Origin: Intestinibaculum porci
Lineage (GTDB): Bacteria; Bacillota_I; Bacilli_A; Erysipelotrichales; Coprobacillaceae
Reading direction: 5' to 3'
Assembly (NCBI RefSeq): GCF_003925875.1
Contig: NZ_AP019309.1
Span: 2,728,001-2,792,000, forward strand
Length of the DNA: 64,000 nucleotides
Numbering within the stretch: the stretch's first letter is position 1; the number at the start of each line of letters is the position of its first letter. Below, one piece after another: positions 10,174-24,861 of the stretch. The translations under genes and the position numbers were made by a program. Below the pieces are notes generated by a model. It saw only the letters and a program-made list of their open reading frames with translations. It searched no databases and was not told where the DNA came from.

Positions 10174-10875
10174 TTATGCTTTTCGCTTTAATCTTTGGAC
10201 AATTAAGAAACCAATCCCGCTAACTACTGCAATCGCGCCGACAATGTAACGAGTTGGTGAATCATAACGGCTTTCATACTTCTGATTCCTGACCTTTTCT
10301 ACTGTCTTGGTCTGCGTTGCTGGTTTACTTTTCTTTTTTGTTTTCTTTTTTGTCACTGTTTTTATCTTCTTAGGTGCTGTCACGCTTTTCTTGATAGGCG
10401 CTGCTTTGACCGCTTTTTTCGCATAACGAGGCTGACTCTCTTTTTTCTCGGTGACGCTTTTAGCAGGGGCCTCGACAGGTTCATCTTCCTCCACGCTTTC
10501 TTCTTGCGCTTCATCTTCCTGACTTGGCGCTACGCCGTCAATTGGATCATACTTCTCCATTCCGCCTTCTTCTTTAACGGTTTTCTTTTTGATCTGATCA
10601 CTGGTATCTTTCACAAGTTCATCAGCGCTATCCTGCACTTTGCCCTGTTGATCACCCGTATCTTTAGTGTCTGTATCCACTTTTTGCACAAGCGAATCCG
10701 CACTATCTTTCAGCTGATCACTTGTATCGACGCTAAGCTGCGAGGCAGTATCATAAGAGGCTGGATCACTGCTTTCTGCCGCTACCGGCATAAAGAATAC
10801 GGCCGCTGAAATGACCATTGTCGTTAATAATATATAACTTAAGGCATTTTTCAATGTCATGTACTTCTTACCCAT
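10174..10875 (-). CDS. Secreted Lys-rich low-complexity protein with C-terminal membrane anchor
   Basis: 233 residues. There is an N-terminal signal segment (ALSYILLTTMVISAAVFFMP), then an acidic Ser/Asp/Gln-rich stretch with repeated DSADxLV-type units. An acidic block follows (DEAQEESVEEDEP), then a strongly basic Lys/Pro/Thr region, and finally a hydrophobic helix (YIVGAIAVVSGIGFLIV) with an RLKRKA tail. The overall plan is that of a sortase substrate, but there is no LPxTG; only DSPTR precedes the helix. It is more safely called a surface protein with a C-terminal membrane anchor. GGGAAG lies near the ATG. Function is unknown. Confidence 0.6.
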   Translation of the reverse strand: MGKKYMTLKNALSYILLTTMVISAAVFFMPVAAESSDPASYDTASQLSVDTSDQLKDSADSLVQKVDTDTKDTGDQQGKVQDSADELVKDTSDQIKKKTVKEEGGMEKYDPIDGVAPSQEDEAQEESVEEDEPVEAPAKSVTEKKESQPRYAKKAVKAAPIKKSVTAPKKIKTVTKKKTKKKSKPATQTKTVEKVRNQKYESRYDSPTRYIVGAIAVVSGIGFLIVQRLKRKA

Positions 10876-14982: not shown

Positions 14983-17067
14983 CTATCTTGCACAAATGGC
15001 AAATGAAATGCCCTGAACATTTAAATGACGATTTTCAATACGTTCATTTTCGCCTTTATGGAGGATTTCAAAATCATCATCAATATCAACCCCAATAATA
15101 TCAAAGGAAGGGTTAATATAAATTCTGAATTCCTTATAAGGACCTTCGTCCTGCGTTAAGATATATTCAATCATCCGGTGATTGATATTGTTAATGCGGA
15201 TATGTTCATGCATATCATCAAAGTTATTGTATCTGAAGCAGGCATTTTCTTTTCTTAATTTGATCAATGCCTTGATTAAATGAATGCTTTCAATGTGCTG
15301 ATCACGCCGCCCCCAGTCAAACTGATTGACTGAATCACCAGCATTATAGGAATTGGCATTCCCATGTTTGGTGTCAAAGAATTCCTGACCGGCATGTAAG
15401 AATGGTACTCCCATTGATAATAAGACCATAATATTGGCGAGTTCACAGCGTCGTCTGATCGCAGATTCCCCTTCATCACGGTTACAAATGGAATATTTAT
15501 CAAAGGTTGTCGCATTATCATGACATTCGACATAGTTGATCGACTGTTCCACCGAACTGAATTTGCCATAATCACACATCGTAATAATCGCATCATTCGT
15601 TTTATAAGTATCCCCAGAGGTATAGCCTTTGATTTCTAACTGATTGCTGCCGCGAACAGTATCACGGAAGAAATCATTAAAGAAACCAACGCGTGGGACT
15701 TTACGATTGTTTTCAATCATAGCCTTCTGTTCATTTGGCAGTGTCCCCATGTTCCAGCCTTCGCCATAAAGCATGAAGGATGGGTCTAAACTGCGGCCCT
15801 GCTCTTCAATCAGGTTAACCGTATCAATATCGGTAATCCCCATTAAGTCCATTCTAAAGCCATCGCAGCCATAAAGTGTCTGCCAGCGGCGACACATTGC
15901 CACAATGTATTTCCGGCACATATAAGCAGTGGAATTTAAATCATCCCCGCACCATGAGCCATTCGTCAAGTTGCCATTTTCATCTCTTCTAAAGAAATAG
16001 TAAGGAACAGTCTTTTCTAAAGCATTGTCATTGACATCATGCATATGGTTAAAGACCACATCTAAGATCACTCTCATGCCATGTTTATGAATGCTTTCAA
16101 TCATATGGATACATTCATTAATACGGCGATAGCCATCATTAGGATCACTGACATAAGACCCTTCTGTCACATTATACTGCGCCGGATCATAACCCCAGTT
16201 ATACAGTTCATAAGGATGATCTTCATCGACTGTCGCATAATCATTAATTGGCTGCAGCTGGACATGGGTAATGCCTAAATCTGCTAAATAATCGACCCCG
16301 CTCTTATAACCGAGCATCGTCGCATTGCCTTCTTCACAGAACGCTAAAAATTTCCCTTTATGACGTAATTCCCCATAAGGATCTACAGAAAAGTCACGGA
16401 CATGCAATTCATAAATAATGGCGTCCGTTTTCTTTTCCAGCGGCGGCAGCGGATAGGTTTTCCGCTGACATTTTGATAAATCCACAATGATCGAACTGCG
16501 CTGATTAGATGTTGAAGAAAACGCGTAAGGATCGCATGTTTCGGTTGTAATATCATTGTTGGAAATAAGATATGTATATTCATATAATTCCAGATCCGAA
16601 TAGACGCGGGTATAGAAAACCCCGCGATCTAAACGTTTCATGGTATAGAGCGTAATGCTCTCTTCATTTTTTAACTTTAAAGTAACGCTTGTAGCGGTTG
16701 GTGCCCAAACCTTAAAAGTGGTATAAGATTTTGTGTAGAATGCGCCTAAGTCATCTCCATCATAAGAGAAATGTTCATCGAATTCCTTACACATTGGCAA
16801 CATCGAAAAATCTAAAAAGCATGTTAAGCCATAAGCGTCAGAAATACGGTAGCTCTTTCCTACTTCAAAAGAGGTACGGAAATAATAGGTATTAAAACCA
16901 TTTTCTTCATTCCCGGCATCCCCGTGTAATAATCTATGTTCATTTGATTCAAGATCTTTTAAATAAAACTTGCTGGAAATTCCATTATAGTAGTTTTTTG
17001 ATAAAAGAACCTTGATTTCATCAAAGGATATTGCATAAGCAAACATCCTAATGGATTCTCTTTGCAT
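14983..17067 (-). CDS. pulA: Type I pullulanase (glycogen/starch debranching enzyme)
   Basis: 694 residues. The N-terminal region carries a beta-sandwich domain (FKVWAPTATSVTLKL), followed by a GH13 barrel. The type I signature YNWGYDP starts at residue 289, the nucleophile Asp is at 407 (GFRMDLMGI), and LYGEGWNMG carries the acid/base Glu. It cleaves alpha-1,6 branches and, lacking a signal peptide, acts inside the cell on glycogen or imported maltodextrin. AAGGAG lies nine bases before the ATG. It heads the pulA-pth-mfd run and complements glgB and glgP upstream. Confidence 0.95.
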   Translation of the reverse strand: MQRESIRMFAYAISFDEIKVLLSKNYYNGISSKFYLKDLESNEHRLLHGDAGNEENGFNTYYFRTSFEVGKSYRISDAYGLTCFLDFSMLPMCKEFDEHFSYDGDDLGAFYTKSYTTFKVWAPTATSVTLKLKNEESITLYTMKRLDRGVFYTRVYSDLELYEYTYLISNNDITTETCDPYAFSSTSNQRSSIIVDLSKCQRKTYPLPPLEKKTDAIIYELHVRDFSVDPYGELRHKGKFLAFCEEGNATMLGYKSGVDYLADLGITHVQLQPINDYATVDEDHPYELYNWGYDPAQYNVTEGSYVSDPNDGYRRINECIHMIESIHKHGMRVILDVVFNHMHDVNDNALEKTVPYYFFRRDENGNLTNGSWCGDDLNSTAYMCRKYIVAMCRRWQTLYGCDGFRMDLMGITDIDTVNLIEEQGRSLDPSFMLYGEGWNMGTLPNEQKAMIENNRKVPRVGFFNDFFRDTVRGSNQLEIKGYTSGDTYKTNDAIITMCDYGKFSSVEQSINYVECHDNATTFDKYSICNRDEGESAIRRRCELANIMVLLSMGVPFLHAGQEFFDTKHGNANSYNAGDSVNQFDWGRRDQHIESIHLIKALIKLRKENACFRYNNFDDMHEHIRINNINHRMIEYILTQDEGPYKEFRIYINPSFDIIGVDIDDDFEILHKGENERIENRHLNVQGISFAICAR

Positions 17068-19137: not shown

Positions 19138-21534
19138 TTAGTGTTTAACCTTTTCTAAGTGCCAGATATCATTGACATATTCTTCAATAGTACGGTCACT
19201 TGAGAAGTAGCCTGATTCCGCAATGTTCTTTAAGCACATTGCTGACCATTTCTGACGATCCTGATATAATTCATTGATCTTGGCCTGAGCTTCACGGTAA
19301 GATTCAAAGTCAGCTAATAAGAAGTATTCATCATTCTTAGACATTAATTCATCAAAGATTAATTTGAATTCTTCTCTTGACTGATGGAATGTCCCGTCAG
19401 TTAAAGAATCAACGACTTTCTTGATCTTAGGATCATTGTTGTAATAATTCCAAGCAGAGTATGTATTAGAACGTTTTAAGTCTTCGACTTCATGATCTTT
19501 TAAACCGAAGATCACGATATTGTCATCACCTAAGCGTTCATACATTTCAACGTTAGCACCATCCATTGTTCCTAAAGTAACAGCACCGTTCATCATGAAC
19601 TTCATGTTACCAGTACCTGATGCTTCTTTACCAGCAGTTGAGATCTGTTCTGAGACATCGGCAGCTGGCATAATCTTTTCAGCTAAAGTAACACCATAGT
19701 TTTCTAAGAATACAACTTTCAGATAAGCATTCGTATCACGGTCGTTATTTACGACATCAGCGACAGAGTTGATTAATTTAATAACTTTCTTAGCGAAGTA
19801 GTAAGAAGGTGCAGCTTTGGCGCCAAAGATAAAGGTATGTGGATAGATACGGAAATCTGGGTTAGCTTTCATTTCCTGATATAAGTAGATGACATGCATG
19901 ATATTTAATAACTGACGTTTATAAGCATGTAATCTCTTAACCTGGATATCAAAGATAGAATTGACATCAACTTCGACACCATTGTGTTCTTTGATATAGT
20001 CTGCTAAAACCTGTTTTCTCTGCTGTTTTACGTTATAGAATTTAGCCTGAACGATAGAATCGTTGACATATTTATTTAAGTTTGATAATAAATCAGGTTC
20101 CTTAATCCAGTCATCCCCAATTGTTTCGTGTAATAACGCGGTTAATTCAGGGTTAGAGTAAGCCAGCCAGCGACGATGTGTAACACCGTTTGTCTTGTTG
20201 TTGAACTTACCTGGGAATAAGTCATTGAATTCTTTCATTTCACGTGTCTTTAAGATTTCAGTATGTAATGCTGCAACCCCATTGACAGAGAATGAACCTG
20301 CAATGGCTAAGTTTGCCATATGCACCTGACCATCTTTCAGAATACGTACTTTTCTTAGGATTTCTTCATCACCATCAGTTTTCATCTTAACGAAGCCAAC
20401 GAAACGACGATCGATTTCTTCGATAATCTGATAAATACGTGGTAATAAGTCTCTCATGACATCGATTGGCCATTTTTCTAAGGCTTCCGCTAAGATCGTA
20501 TGGTTCGTATAGGCACAAGTATGTTTTACGATTTCCCATGATTCATCCCAGCCCATGTCATATTCATCCATAAAGATACGCATTAATTCAGGAATAACTA
20601 ATACAGGATGCGTATCATTTAACTGAATAACATTTTTATCTGCAAAATTCGTTAAGTCTGGATACACTCTTAAGTGTGCACGGATAATAGAATTTAAGCC
20701 GGCAGCCACAAAGAAATACTGCTGTTTTAATCTTAAAATACGTCCTGCTAATGTTGAATCATCAGGATATAAGGTCTGACAGATCTGATTCACTTCGTTC
20801 GCATACTGCTGGAAATCCTTATTAGAAGGAATATTTTCAGAAGGTTCAGCCTTCCATAATCTTAATGTATTTGTAATGATGGTATCATTACCAACCACTG
20901 GTACATCATATGGAACTGCGCGGACTGCTTCCGCATCAACATGTTTCCATTTTTGTTCATTATCATCCCAGATGACTTTCCCCCAGAATTTTACGTCGCA
21001 GGAATGTTTTGGTTTACGTACTTCCCACTGATAACCTAAATGAAGCCACTGATCTGGTACTTCGACCTGATAGCCGTCTTCAATTTTCTGTTTGAAAAAG
21101 CCATAGTCATAACGAATAGTATGACCGAATGCAGGATAAGATAATGAGGCTAAAGAATCCATAAAACAAGCTGCTAAACGACCTAAACCGCCATTCCCTA
21201 AACCAGCATCTGCTTCTAATTCTTCCAGTTCATGAATATTGATACCGAAGTCAGCTAAACCTTCCTTCGCAATATCATAAATACCCAGATTCATCATGTT
21301 GTTAACCAGTAAACGACCAATTAAGAATTCCATTGAGAAATAATGAAGCTGTTTCTTTGATTTCTGCTGAATGGCCATTTTGGTCATTGCCCAGTTGACA
21401 CTGGCATAATCACGTACCATTGTTTCAAGAACCATGAATTTTTCTGTAATGTGTGATTCTTCAACAGTACGACCATACGATTCAATAATTCGTTTAGAGA
21501 ACTCGTATTTAAATTCTTCCTTAGTTTTAAACAT
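19138..21534 (-). CDS. glgP: Glycogen phosphorylase
   Basis: 798 residues of the GT35 family. The pyridoxal-phosphate motif EASGTGNMKFMMNG is present with the cofactor Lys at 645, and LGNGGLGRLAACFMDSLA marks the substrate/PLP region. The enzyme releases glucose-1-phosphate from glycogen ends. It follows glgB by 13 bases. No synthase (glgA) or glgC/D is seen in the window, so the synthetic genes must lie elsewhere. Confidence 0.97.
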   Translation of the reverse strand: MFKTKEEFKYEFSKRIIESYGRTVEESHITEKFMVLETMVRDYASVNWAMTKMAIQQKSKKQLHYFSMEFLIGRLLVNNMMNLGIYDIAKEGLADFGINIHELEELEADAGLGNGGLGRLAACFMDSLASLSYPAFGHTIRYDYGFFKQKIEDGYQVEVPDQWLHLGYQWEVRKPKHSCDVKFWGKVIWDDNEQKWKHVDAEAVRAVPYDVPVVGNDTIITNTLRLWKAEPSENIPSNKDFQQYANEVNQICQTLYPDDSTLAGRILRLKQQYFFVAAGLNSIIRAHLRVYPDLTNFADKNVIQLNDTHPVLVIPELMRIFMDEYDMGWDESWEIVKHTCAYTNHTILAEALEKWPIDVMRDLLPRIYQIIEEIDRRFVGFVKMKTDGDEEILRKVRILKDGQVHMANLAIAGSFSVNGVAALHTEILKTREMKEFNDLFPGKFNNKTNGVTHRRWLAYSNPELTALLHETIGDDWIKEPDLLSNLNKYVNDSIVQAKFYNVKQQRKQVLADYIKEHNGVEVDVNSIFDIQVKRLHAYKRQLLNIMHVIYLYQEMKANPDFRIYPHTFIFGAKAAPSYYFAKKVIKLINSVADVVNNDRDTNAYLKVVFLENYGVTLAEKIMPAADVSEQISTAGKEASGTGNMKFMMNGAVTLGTMDGANVEMYERLGDDNIVIFGLKDHEVEDLKRSNTYSAWNYYNNDPKIKKVVDSLTDGTFHQSREEFKLIFDELMSKNDEYFLLADFESYREAQAKINELYQDRQKWSAMCLKNIAESGYFSSDRTIEEYVNDIWHLEKVKH

Positions 21535-21547
21535 TTTTTACCCCCGA

Positions 21548-23740
21548 TTACTTTTTGTCAGCCGCAGCTTTTTTCTGCGTGCTCGTTTTTCTTGACGTCT
21601 TGGCTGCTGTCTTCGTGGCAGTCTTGCGTGTTGTCTTCGTTGTCGCTTTAGACGTCTTTGATGGTGCCTTTTTCGTTTCTGTCTTACTTACTGTTTTACT
21701 TTCCGCTTTTGCTTTTGGCGCAGCCTTTGTTTTGGACGCTGCTTTTTTCGCTGCCGCTTTCTTAGCTGGCGCTTTTGCTGTTTTTTCAGCTGGTTTTTCA
21801 GCTGGTTTTTCAGCTTCTTCTTTTGCCTTTTGGGCAGCCTTTGCAGCCGCTTCACGTTTTGCTTTTCTCGTTGCTAAGGTTTCTTTTCCCTTATAACTGA
21901 AGACGCAAGCACTAAATGGTGCTAATTTCACAGTAATAGACTGATCCTGATTCAGACAAGTGCCATCAACTGATTTGATTGGTTTGGTATTCAGGAAGTT
22001 ACTTCCTGTATACTTACCTTCATCTGTGTTCATGATTTCTGTATACGTGCCCTTAAATGGAACCGGAATCGTATAGCCTTCATGTTTATTGCCAATGAAG
22101 TTGAGGACAACAACGATACAGTCACCATCTGGATCATGTCTTGCATATGCAAAGACTGACTGCTGGTTATCATCGACAACTAACCATTCAAATCCTTCCG
22201 GATCATAATCAAGCTTCCATAATGCTGGATGTTCATCATAAAGCTTATTTAAATCAGCGAAGAAATGGTGGAAGGAATCATGCTGTGGATATTTCAGGAT
22301 TTCCCAGCCTAACGCTTTCTTTTCATCCCATTCCTTGTATTCGCCAAGTTCATTGCCCATGAAGTTTAACTTCTTGCCAGGATGTGTAAACATATATGTA
22401 TATAATGCTTTGGCCTGGGCAAACTTATCATCATTTAAGCCCCACATCTTATTCAGAATCGTTGCTTTGCCATGAACCACTTCATCGTGTGAGAATGGCA
22501 GAATGAAACGTTCTGAGTAGAAGTACATCATGGAGAACGTTAAAAGGTTATGGTCATACTGACGATAAACAGGATCTTCTTTGAAATAGCGAAGGGTATC
22601 GTTCATCCAGCCCATATCCCATTTATAGTCGAAACCAACACCGCCTTCATCCACTGGTTTTGTCACAAATGGGAAGTCGGTACTATCTTCAGCGATCAGC
22701 ATAACGCCTGGATATTCCTCATTCATACGTTTATTCATACGTTTGAGTAATTCGATTGCGCCATCGTTTTCGCCGATAAACTTGTTACCTTTCCAGTATA
22801 ACATATTGGATACCGCATCAAAACGGATCCCATCAATATGGAATTCTTCAGCCCAGAAATGGACCGCTGACATTAAGAATGAGCGAACTTCTTCTTTCCC
22901 GGCATCAAAATAAACAGAATCCCATTCTGAATAACGGCGATTGACATCAGCATATTCATAAACCCAGCCGCCATCAAACTGATGTAAGCCGTGCGCATCT
23001 TTAACGAAATGCGCTAATACCATATCCATAATAACCCCGATGCCGTTTTTATGACATTCATCAATAAAATGCATCAGCTGTTTTGGATTACCATAACGCG
23101 ACGTTGCACTGAAGTAACCAGTTGCCTGATAACCCCATGAGCCATCAAATGGGAATTCATTTAATGGCATTAATTCTAAGTGCGTGAACCCATTTTCTTT
23201 CGCATATGGAATAATCATTTCCGATAATTCCTCATAAGAATAGAATGTGCCGTCTTCCGTATCCGTAAATGGCTTCTTTAATTTCCATGATCCTAAGTTC
23301 GCTTCATAAATCGTCATCTTACGATCAAAGTTTTTCGTACGCTTTTTCATCCAGTCCCCATCAGTCCATGGGAAGCCGCGTAAGTCATAAACCTTAGAAG
23401 CCGTACCAGGACGGATTTCACTAAAGAAAGCATAAGGATCGGCTTTTTCAATCATGCCGCCATCAGCCTTCTCAATACGATATTTATACATTTGGAAATC
23501 TTTTACATGAGGAATCCATTTGGTCCAGATCCCGCCATTGTAATGACGTTCCATATAATCATTGTGACCGTCCCAGTTGTTGAAATCACCAATCACCTGC
23601 ACAGAGCGAGCGTTAGGTGCATAGACAGTAAAACGCACACCATCGATATTATCCACTGTTTCGGGATGTGCACCGAAAAGCTTATAAGCTTCAAGACAGT
23701 TTCCTTCATGATATAATTTAATCAAGAAATCATCTAACAT
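21548..23740 (-). CDS. glgB: 1,4-alpha-glucan branching enzyme with histone-H1-like tail
   Basis: 730 residues. The N-terminal CBM48 domain (FTVYAPNARSVQVIGDFNNW) precedes a GH13 barrel with nucleophile Asp308 (GIRFDAVSNML), acid/base Glu351 (LIAEDST) and Asp419 (FSHDEVVHGK). It makes alpha-1,6 branches in glycogen. The enzyme proper ends near residue 618. The last 112 residues (619-730) are almost only Ala, Lys, Thr, Ser, Pro and Glu and increasingly basic, which is not part of normal GlgB. The start at 23740 has GGAGG upstream; an ATG 18 bases earlier is less likely. Confidence 0.95.
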   Translation of the reverse strand: MLDDFLIKLYHEGNCLEAYKLFGAHPETVDNIDGVRFTVYAPNARSVQVIGDFNNWDGHNDYMERHYNGGIWTKWIPHVKDFQMYKYRIEKADGGMIEKADPYAFFSEIRPGTASKVYDLRGFPWTDGDWMKKRTKNFDRKMTIYEANLGSWKLKKPFTDTEDGTFYSYEELSEMIIPYAKENGFTHLELMPLNEFPFDGSWGYQATGYFSATSRYGNPKQLMHFIDECHKNGIGVIMDMVLAHFVKDAHGLHQFDGGWVYEYADVNRRYSEWDSVYFDAGKEEVRSFLMSAVHFWAEEFHIDGIRFDAVSNMLYWKGNKFIGENDGAIELLKRMNKRMNEEYPGVMLIAEDSTDFPFVTKPVDEGGVGFDYKWDMGWMNDTLRYFKEDPVYRQYDHNLLTFSMMYFYSERFILPFSHDEVVHGKATILNKMWGLNDDKFAQAKALYTYMFTHPGKKLNFMGNELGEYKEWDEKKALGWEILKYPQHDSFHHFFADLNKLYDEHPALWKLDYDPEGFEWLVVDDNQQSVFAYARHDPDGDCIVVVLNFIGNKHEGYTIPVPFKGTYTEIMNTDEGKYTGSNFLNTKPIKSVDGTCLNQDQSITVKLAPFSACVFSYKGKETLATRKAKREAAAKAAQKAKEEAEKPAEKPAEKTAKAPAKKAAAKKAASKTKAAPKAKAESKTVSKTETKKAPSKTSKATTKTTRKTATKTAAKTSRKTSTQKKAAADKK
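21551..21886 (-). repeat. Lys/Ala-rich low-complexity tail of glgB
   Basis: These 112 codons encode an imperfectly repetitive tail with units such as EKPAEKPAEKTAKAP and KTARK/KTSRK-like basic blocks. The composition resembles histone H1 and the bacterial H1-like or AlgP-like tails. Codons vary among the repeats, so this is not a recent simple expansion. Confidence 0.8.
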
Positions 23741-23766
23741 ACATATTTCCTCCATCATATATACTT

Positions 23767-23824: not shown

Positions 23825-24814
23825 TTATCTTACATTTATTTCATTAATATGACTTAAGATAATATCGCTCGTTCCATCAGTGTTTTCGCGAATTTCAATA
23901 TTATTCTTATTCACATAGTCTTCGACACTCACTGTCACACTCATATCGGTATCTGTCGTGATTTTACATTTTTCAATGGCACTCGTTAACGTATTCGCGT
24001 TAATTGTATCCTCACTATCCACCCCTAAATTTTTGAGGTTTTCTTTGGATTCTTCAGCCGCCTGGTCATTGCTCGCTAACACCTGCTGAACAATTTCAAT
24101 CGGTTTGATCACTTCCTGATGCATAACCTTCTGATTCAGCTGCTGTTTCATCAGGGCAATCGCCTGACTATCTTTCACCGAATAATTGGCTTCCGCTTTT
24201 TTGACCACTTTGGTCATCGCACTGACCTTCTGACGATCCGTTAATTTCTCTTCGCCTTTGATCCATTGCGTATTTAAATACGTATCTAATTTCCCATCAA
24301 TGGCATATTTCTTTTCAATTAAATAGAGACTGTGACGATCGATATTCACGATAATCGCTTCATCGACTGGCGCGCCGATGCCTGGCAATGTCTGCGCGCG
24401 GGAAATGCGGACATTATCCGGATCCAGCACCGATACCGGTACAAATTTATAATTCAGTTTTAACGCTGCCACAACGCGATCTCCGTCTTTATAACAATCT
24501 ACATGCAAAACCATGCAGTTTGGCATGCCTTCGATCACGCTGCCTAATTTAAAGAACTTCTCAGTAACTTCTTTAGCCTGCTCTTTAAACTTTTCATCGT
24601 TTTCAATCATCTGATTAGCTCTGAGCATCATTTCATGCATCGAGCCCACAACGACCTGTTTGATTTGATTAGAGTTTAAACCCTTTTCTACTTTTTTCTG
24701 ATAATAATCCTGGGTTGTATCATTGAGCGTCGCAAATTCATCTGATAAATGAATTTTCCGATGTTCAAAATCAATCATGTGAACAAGAATTTTATTAATA
24801 ACAATAGTATTCAC
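23825..24814 (-). CDS. Nucleoid-associated (NdpA/YejK-like) protein
   Basis: 329 residues. The N-terminus (TIVINKILVHMIDFEHRKIHLSDEF) and the alpha/beta layout match the 37-kDa nucleoid-associated family. Members bind or associate with the chromosome in Proteobacteria; roles in Bacillota are little known. I start at a GTG (24814) because GGAAGGAGGGG lies five bases upstream; the ATG at 24847 has no such site. It stands just upstream of glgB on the same strand but is separated from it by the glgB promoter region. Confidence 0.7.
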   Translation of the reverse strand: MNTIVINKILVHMIDFEHRKIHLSDEFATLNDTTQDYYQKKVEKGLNSNQIKQVVVGSMHEMMLRANQMIENDEKFKEQAKEVTEKFFKLGSVIEGMPNCMVLHVDCYKDGDRVVAALKLNYKFVPVSVLDPDNVRISRAQTLPGIGAPVDEAIIVNIDRHSLYLIEKKYAIDGKLDTYLNTQWIKGEEKLTDRQKVSAMTKVVKKAEANYSVKDSQAIALMKQQLNQKVMHQEVIKPIEIVQQVLASNDQAAEESKENLKNLGVDSEDTINANTLTSAIEKCKITTDTDMSVTVSVEDYVNKNNIEIRENTDGTSDIILSHINEINVR

Positions 24815-24861
24815 ATCGTCCCCTCCTTCCAGGGCATTATAGCACATTTCTTATTAAAAAC

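Follow-up and report, generated by a model that had tools for sequence, protein, structure and literature searches.

By means of histone-like domains, PhaF and PhaM attach to DNA and distribute PHA/PHB granules over the nucleoid, and the KPAA-rich, H1-like C-terminus of AlgP is needed for the even spacing of polyphosphate (polyP) granules; the H1-like domains of these proteins are KPAA-rich or of the PAKKA type (PMC9239181, PMC13052382, PMC11352279). For PHA/PHB granules, H1-like tails were shown experimentally to act as nucleoid tethers (PMC9239181, PMC13052382), and AlgP with its H1-like tail was found on the polyP granules themselves (PMC9239181). Few studies have addressed where bacteria place glycogen inside the cell; glycogen is absent from a 2025 review on the positioning of bacterial organelles (PMC13052382), and a literature search for basic tails of GlgB or GlgA found no paper.

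We analyzed a window of 64,000 nucleotides from the genome of Intestinibaculum porci (here G000), in which the glycogen branching enzyme GlgB continues beyond its enzyme part into a long basic tail. The following features are referred to; G001 is a sister species of the same genus, and G030 and G031 are two species of one other genus.

21548-23758, minus strand: glgB open reading frame, 736 aa
21893..23758, minus strand: catalytic part of GlgB, residues 1-622, with GlgB_N/CBM48, GH13 catalytic and all-beta C-terminal domains (Pfam PF02922, PF00128, PF02806; NCBIfam NF003811, NF008967)
21809..21877, minus strand: charged linker helix predicted by AlphaFold2, residues 628-650, right behind the GlgB core
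21551..21793, minus strand: predicted disordered polycationic tail, residues 656-736, with 27 K/R and 4 D/E (from pLDDT, composition and the orthologous tails of G001, G030 and G031)
19138..21534, minus strand: glgP, glycogen phosphorylase (PF00343), starting 13 bases past the glgB stop, without a tail
14983..17067, minus strand: pulA-type debranching enzyme belonging to the same conserved cluster (PF00128 and PF02922), without a tail
23825-24847, minus strand: conserved upstream ORF, 340 aa, found upstream of glgB in G001, G011, G012, G026 and G029 and in at least six genomes in all
10174-10875, minus strand: protein with a signal-like N-terminus, a C-terminal membrane segment and a Lys-rich stretch, KKAVKAAPIKKSVTAPKKIKTVTKKKTKKKSKP

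Homology to GlgB stops at residues 617-625 in both Pfam and NCBIfam, and the all-beta C-terminal domain ends at residue 622 according to Pfam. Two GlgB equivalogs, NF003811 (788.5 bits against a cut-off of 741) and NF008967 (782 against 577), end at residues 621-625. Judged by these matches, residues 1-622 make up a complete GlgB of the usual kind. Residues R312, D314, E357, H424 and D425 are unchanged in an alignment with 16 relatives; D314, E357 and D425 lie in the motifs RFDAV, AEDST and SHDEVVHGK and correspond to the Asp/Glu/Asp catalytic triad of GH13. Solved GlgB examples (21jh, 5gqw, 1m7x, 3k1d) match residues 9-619 of the window's enzyme; their alignments end at residues 613-619, and none reaches its 114-residue tail. 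A putative polymer-binding part of GlgB and GlgA is implied by catalysis on glycogen and by CBM48.

The glgB gene adjoins glgP in nearly all neighbourhoods examined, and the order GlgB-GlgP-PulA-Pth-Mfd is kept in relatives. A second GlgB paralogue of the same genome (G000:C1:2215550-2217226) is devoid of a basic low-complexity C-terminus of at least 50 residues. Elsewhere, three equally scoring GH13-type matches follow each other at intervals of exactly 3582 bases (G000:C1:1820534-1828057), which suggests that a GH13 gene and its surroundings were recently triplicated in tandem.

The upstream ORF had been described as nucleoid-associated in type, a description that found no support. It showed no significant family match in Pfam or NCBIfam and no solved relative among PDB sequences, and a search of the whole genome for the nucleoid-associated family NA37 (PF04245) came up empty even at E up to 10, while a control search was positive in E. 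coli. The ORF thus lends no support to a link with the nucleoid, and the assignment was rejected; the AlphaFold model of the ORF was poor (pLDDT 54).

The in-frame continuation past the GlgB core comprises 114 residues with 38 K/R and 10 D/E, a net charge of +28 as compared to -32 for the core. Residues 623-736 consist largely of 34 K, 4 R, 31 A, 18 T, 9 E, 7 S, 5 P and 1 D. A preliminary description had placed the tail at 21551-21886, which corresponds exactly to residues 625-736, and had called it histone-H1-like; indeed, its composition resembles that of histone-H1 C-termini. Furthermore, it had mentioned KTSRK/KTARK-like repeats; such loose motifs are present, but they form no regular array. 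Tandem repeat analysis with TRF returned short weak repeats only, and the tail holds no KPAA and a single PAKK motif. Over the last 81 residues the net charge per residue is +0.28, with a single large hydrophobic residue among them.

AlphaFold2, run with 16 relatives, predicted an ordered GlgB core, a confident helix at residues 628-650 (block pLDDT 81-84) and disorder at residues 656-736 (pLDDT mostly <50). The helix follows a G-x-ETL junction common to G001, G029, G030 and G031. An E-K pattern at i+3/i+4, as in single alpha-helices, was significant in G001, G030 and G031; for the GlgB of the window the charge pattern was not significant, and a single-alpha-helix stalk was rejected there.

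Tails of this kind are rare in the genome. Among 761 ORFs of a sample that covers 27% of the genome (the window and forty stretches of 20 kb), only the GlgB of the window carries a basic low-complexity C-terminus of at least 50 aa; as the sole hit in this sample, the tail is more than chance in its own genome. The sampled ORFs also contain three Lys-rich low-complexity segments of at least 60 aa, one of them in the membrane-type protein at 10174-10875.

The tail is, as judged from relatives, not peculiar to one strain. The GlgB of G001 carries 117 tail residues, and those of G030 and G031 carry 99 each in a gap-free alignment; the basic tail thus recurs in related species. Shorter tails were found in G026 (29 residues), G011 (22), G012 (14; its GlgB matches Eggerthia catenaformis) and the g9 species (21-28). 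That of G029 has 49 residues and is helical and nearly neutral, behind the same junction as in the window's enzyme. Most members of the family end 4-13 residues past the core without a long tail; the overall range in the window's family is 4-119 aa. Nearly all GlgB proteins surveyed in this family have a net-basic tail, of 5-119 residues, and in two families 56 of 59 GlgB sequences end in a net-positive C-terminal tail, however short.

On a GlgB tree the long-tailed lineage of the window forms one supported clade. Other long tails (g9/g13, G019 and several lineages of a second family) are placed elsewhere on the tree; long tails were therefore gained or lost several times. Outside the order, basic GlgB tails occur in Anaeroplasma and rumen Clostridia, and one of 129 residues lies in a contig labelled Collinsella. 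Frequencies beyond the family of the window are overestimates, because one search peptide for GlgB relatives (QKAKEEAE) lay inside the tail and the second-family neighbourhoods were mostly picked for long alignments.

Selection on the tail was analyzed in pairs of relatives. For G030/G031, the tail gave dN 0.101 and dS 0.317 (dN/dS 0.32) as compared to 0.018 and 0.532 (0.03) for the core; for G000/G001, the values were 0.441 and 2.375 (0.19) for the tail and 0.111 and 1.495 (0.07) for the core, with dS saturated. In simulations that placed an equal number of base substitutions at random in the tail of G030, 99.9% of the trials produced more amino-acid changes than observed (P=0.0006), and about 80% produced a stop codon. 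By the dN/dS values and the outcome of these trials, the tail is under purifying selection, though less strongly than the core. Its codons are mixed in much the same way as those of the core: Lys is coded 21 times by AAA and 13 times by AAG, and all four Ala codons are used. In G183/G184, the tails share 57% identity as compared to 99% for the cores, and in a short pair of 23 codons, G017/G014, dN exceeded dS. By these measures the tail is fast-evolving yet selected as protein, with dN/dS of about 0.2-0.3 versus 0.03-0.07 for the core. The earlier proposal that it is kept as protein thus holds for the longer pairs.

A search for glycogen synthases revealed a second carrier: many tail-bearing genomes of the family possess a further GlgA, whose open frame is unusually long.

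About G000:C1:2954003-2956255 (L216:7004-9256), minus strand: GlgA2, second glycogen synthase, near glgP and malQ paralogues

GlgA2 consists of an N-terminal extension of ~270 aa followed by a catalytic part of 480 residues, which matches the glycogen synthase model TIGR02095 with 547.7 bits (cut-off 328.45). The standard GlgA1 of the glgC-glgD-glgA cluster has no extension, whereas most members of the GlgA2 clade carry N-terminal ones of ~50-360 aa. The extension is rich in Lys, Ala, Thr, Glu and Pro, holds 80 K/R and 42 D/E, and is partly coded by a 48-bp tandem DNA repeat present in 8.8 copies, KPAAKTTAKKAEVKEE. It contains 8 KPAA motifs in G000 and 10 in G030. Orthologues vary in repeat number (360 versus 242 aa in sister species); the extension spans 120-360 residues in relatives, requires a GTG start in G026 and is missing in G029, and a PRRS/PRKS motif always joins it to the catalytic domain. 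A BLAST search for further copies of the GlgB tail in the genome returned none at E up to 10; the same search missed the GlgA2 extension, and similarity driven by composition can thus escape it.

Two further observations were made around glgA2. An identical ORF of 640 aa (PMVPFFVMKVIIVMSKG...) occurs in five sampled stretches of the genome (L158, L164, L165, L173, L216); it is a multi-copy mobile element, one copy of which lies ~1.3 kb downstream of glgA2. Additionally, G030 (L217:5680-6355) and G031 (L223:9668-10361) encode near glgA2 a protein with a charged-helix repeat, KAEAEAKAKAEAEAK, which resembles the GlgB linker and precedes a conserved SRGGRL...SAGVFNG segment.

Basic low-complexity segments of at least 50 aa were counted in the distinct ORFs of the loci gathered by this stage of the analysis. 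They were present in 23 of 30 GlgA2, 17 of 101 GlgB, 0 of 216 other glycogen enzymes and 7 of 1609 other ORFs; Fisher P values for these counts ignore relatedness. In the same genomes, no such segment occurs in GlgP, GlgC, GlgD, GlgA1, GlgB2 or PulA. A looser C-terminal test was positive for 2 of 452 neighbouring ORFs, both of them glycogen phosphorylases of Anaeroplasma (L070 and L092) encoded downstream of glgB; these have a short basic C-terminal tail (APAKKAPAKKTTAKKAA), and the GlgB there is basic-tailed too. HU-family open frames of 12 relatives measure 92-122 aa and leave no room for a long H1-like tail.

In the window's family, GlgA2 occurs in 12 of 43 genomes. In eleven of these, the GlgA2 extension goes with a GlgB tail of at least +7 net charge; G029, the twelfth, lacks both. 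This co-occurrence is given in raw genome counts that represent few independent lineages. Without GlgA2, GlgB tails of net +7 or more were found only in G001, G016 and G025, and in two of these (assemblies 82% and 72% complete) a gap in the assembly may explain why GlgA2 is absent. The second family contains GlgA2 extensions without GlgB tails (G232, G235, G237), a tailless GlgB in g69, and, conversely, GlgB tails in genomes lacking GlgA2 (G117 and others); its GlgA2 extensions are often mixed-charge or acidic (L245, L252, L253, L256). The pairing of the two extensions therefore holds in the window's family and fails as a general rule.

The tail exists, is basic and predicted to be disordered, recurs in relatives, is selected as protein, and is concentrated, together with the extension of GlgA2, on two glycogen-building enzymes. 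Disordered polycations of such make-up bind polyanions without sequence preference. The tail may be a polycation, intrinsically disordered and maintained, that sits on a short stalk of helix and would let the glycogen-building enzymes grip a large polyanion inside the cell, with their folded domains staying on the glucan. The partner would most likely be the nucleoid, and growing glycogen particles would be tethered to the chromosome and spread along it, as happens to PHA/PHB granules through PhaF and PhaM and has been proposed for polyphosphate granules and AlgP. GlgB C-terminal and GlgA2 N-terminal extensions on the same particle could provide a multivalent, weak and sequence-independent attachment. 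We infer all three of polyanion binding, DNA as that polyanion and granule positioning, and hold this polycationic anchor on the glycogen builders, with the nucleoid as its most likely partner, as a tentative preference that we put somewhat below an even chance. Tethering of glycogen to the nucleoid by the tail appears plausible; it gains indirect weight because GlgA2 of the same genome is similarly extended and because H1-like granule tethers have precedents. The shorter basic tails on both GlgB and GlgP of Anaeroplasma would fit a common third partner. Against an anchor count the spread of tail lengths within one family, the high sequence turnover, the many members without a long tail, and a charge sign and GlgA2/GlgB pairing that are not kept in the second family.

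The same observations feed a serious rival, namely that the tail is a tolerated low-complexity extension whose length and sequence are loosely constrained. Termini would grow by repeat slippage and stay soluble, hydrophilic and stop-free, with no specific partner or role. Tails of 4-119 aa in one family, their divergence far faster than that of the core, the 48-bp array of GlgA2 with its differing copy number in sister species, and the relaxed charge sign of distant GlgA2 proteins would all be expected of such growth. However, dN/dS is well below 1 in the longer pairs, amino-acid changes fall below expectation, the extensions cluster on GlgB and GlgA2 and spare the other enzymes of the pathway at this length, and nearly all GlgB tails are net positive. 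We regard mere tolerance as less likely than not, with a considerable chance nevertheless of being right.

The opposite charges of core and tail could also point to an electrostatic glue: basic extensions would bind the acidic cores of GlgB, GlgP or GlgA to form a complex or condensate, or would fold back on their own core and tune its activity. The adjoining positions of glgB and glgP in the operon and the sharing of the trait by enzymes of one pathway are in line with this. But an acidic core is ordinary among cytoplasmic proteins, the restriction of the tails to GlgB and GlgA2 would be left unexplained, and in Anaeroplasma both would-be partners are basic-tailed; we consider this explanation, the other main rival, unlikely.

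Polyphosphate, which the preliminary description had named as a possible partner, or RNA might draw the glycogen enzymes to granules or condensates of these polymers. AlgP sits on polyP granules by way of precedent (PMC9239181), and the window's own genome has ppk1 (G000:C1:2714257). However, G012, G013 and G026 (99-100% complete) have GlgA2 extensions and no match to PF02503; these three near-complete genomes without a recognisable ppk1 make polyP a less likely partner. Since many tailless genomes carry ppk1, which is not associated with tails, polyP was rejected as an obligatory partner, and binding to polyP or RNA in general seems quite improbable. Anchoring to the anionic cell surface (teichoic acids), likewise suggested earlier, or to the membrane is hardly credible: the signal- or membrane-type protein at 10174-10875 also has a Lys-rich segment, but GlgB shows no export signal, and its substrate and its operon partners, GlgP included, are cytoplasmic.

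If the tail does anchor glycogen to DNA, glycogen would join PHA/PHB and polyphosphate as a storage polymer held on the nucleoid by H1-like tails, and its tether would be part of the very enzymes that synthesise it. In its widest form this would mean that Erysipelotrichales-type Firmicutes fix glycogen to the nucleoid by H1-like tails at the N-terminus of GlgA2, the C-terminus of GlgB and, in Anaeroplasma, on GlgP, making it the third such polymer after PHA and polyP, by convergence; taken as a whole, this is possible but rather doubtful. The analysis supplies GlgA2 as a named second carrier and a family-wide natural series of tail lengths from 4 to 119 residues. Like the proteobacterial proteins PhaF, PhaM and AlgP, GlgB combines a role in storage-polymer metabolism with a predicted disordered, Lys/Ala/Pro/Thr-rich, H1-like domain, and the KPAA motifs of AlgP-type domains are also present in GlgA2. 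The likeness to PhaF, PhaM and AlgP is detectable in composition only. In those systems the tail belongs to a dedicated granule-associated protein of PHA/PHB or polyP, whereas here, in another phylum, it is carried by the enzymes that build the glycogen.
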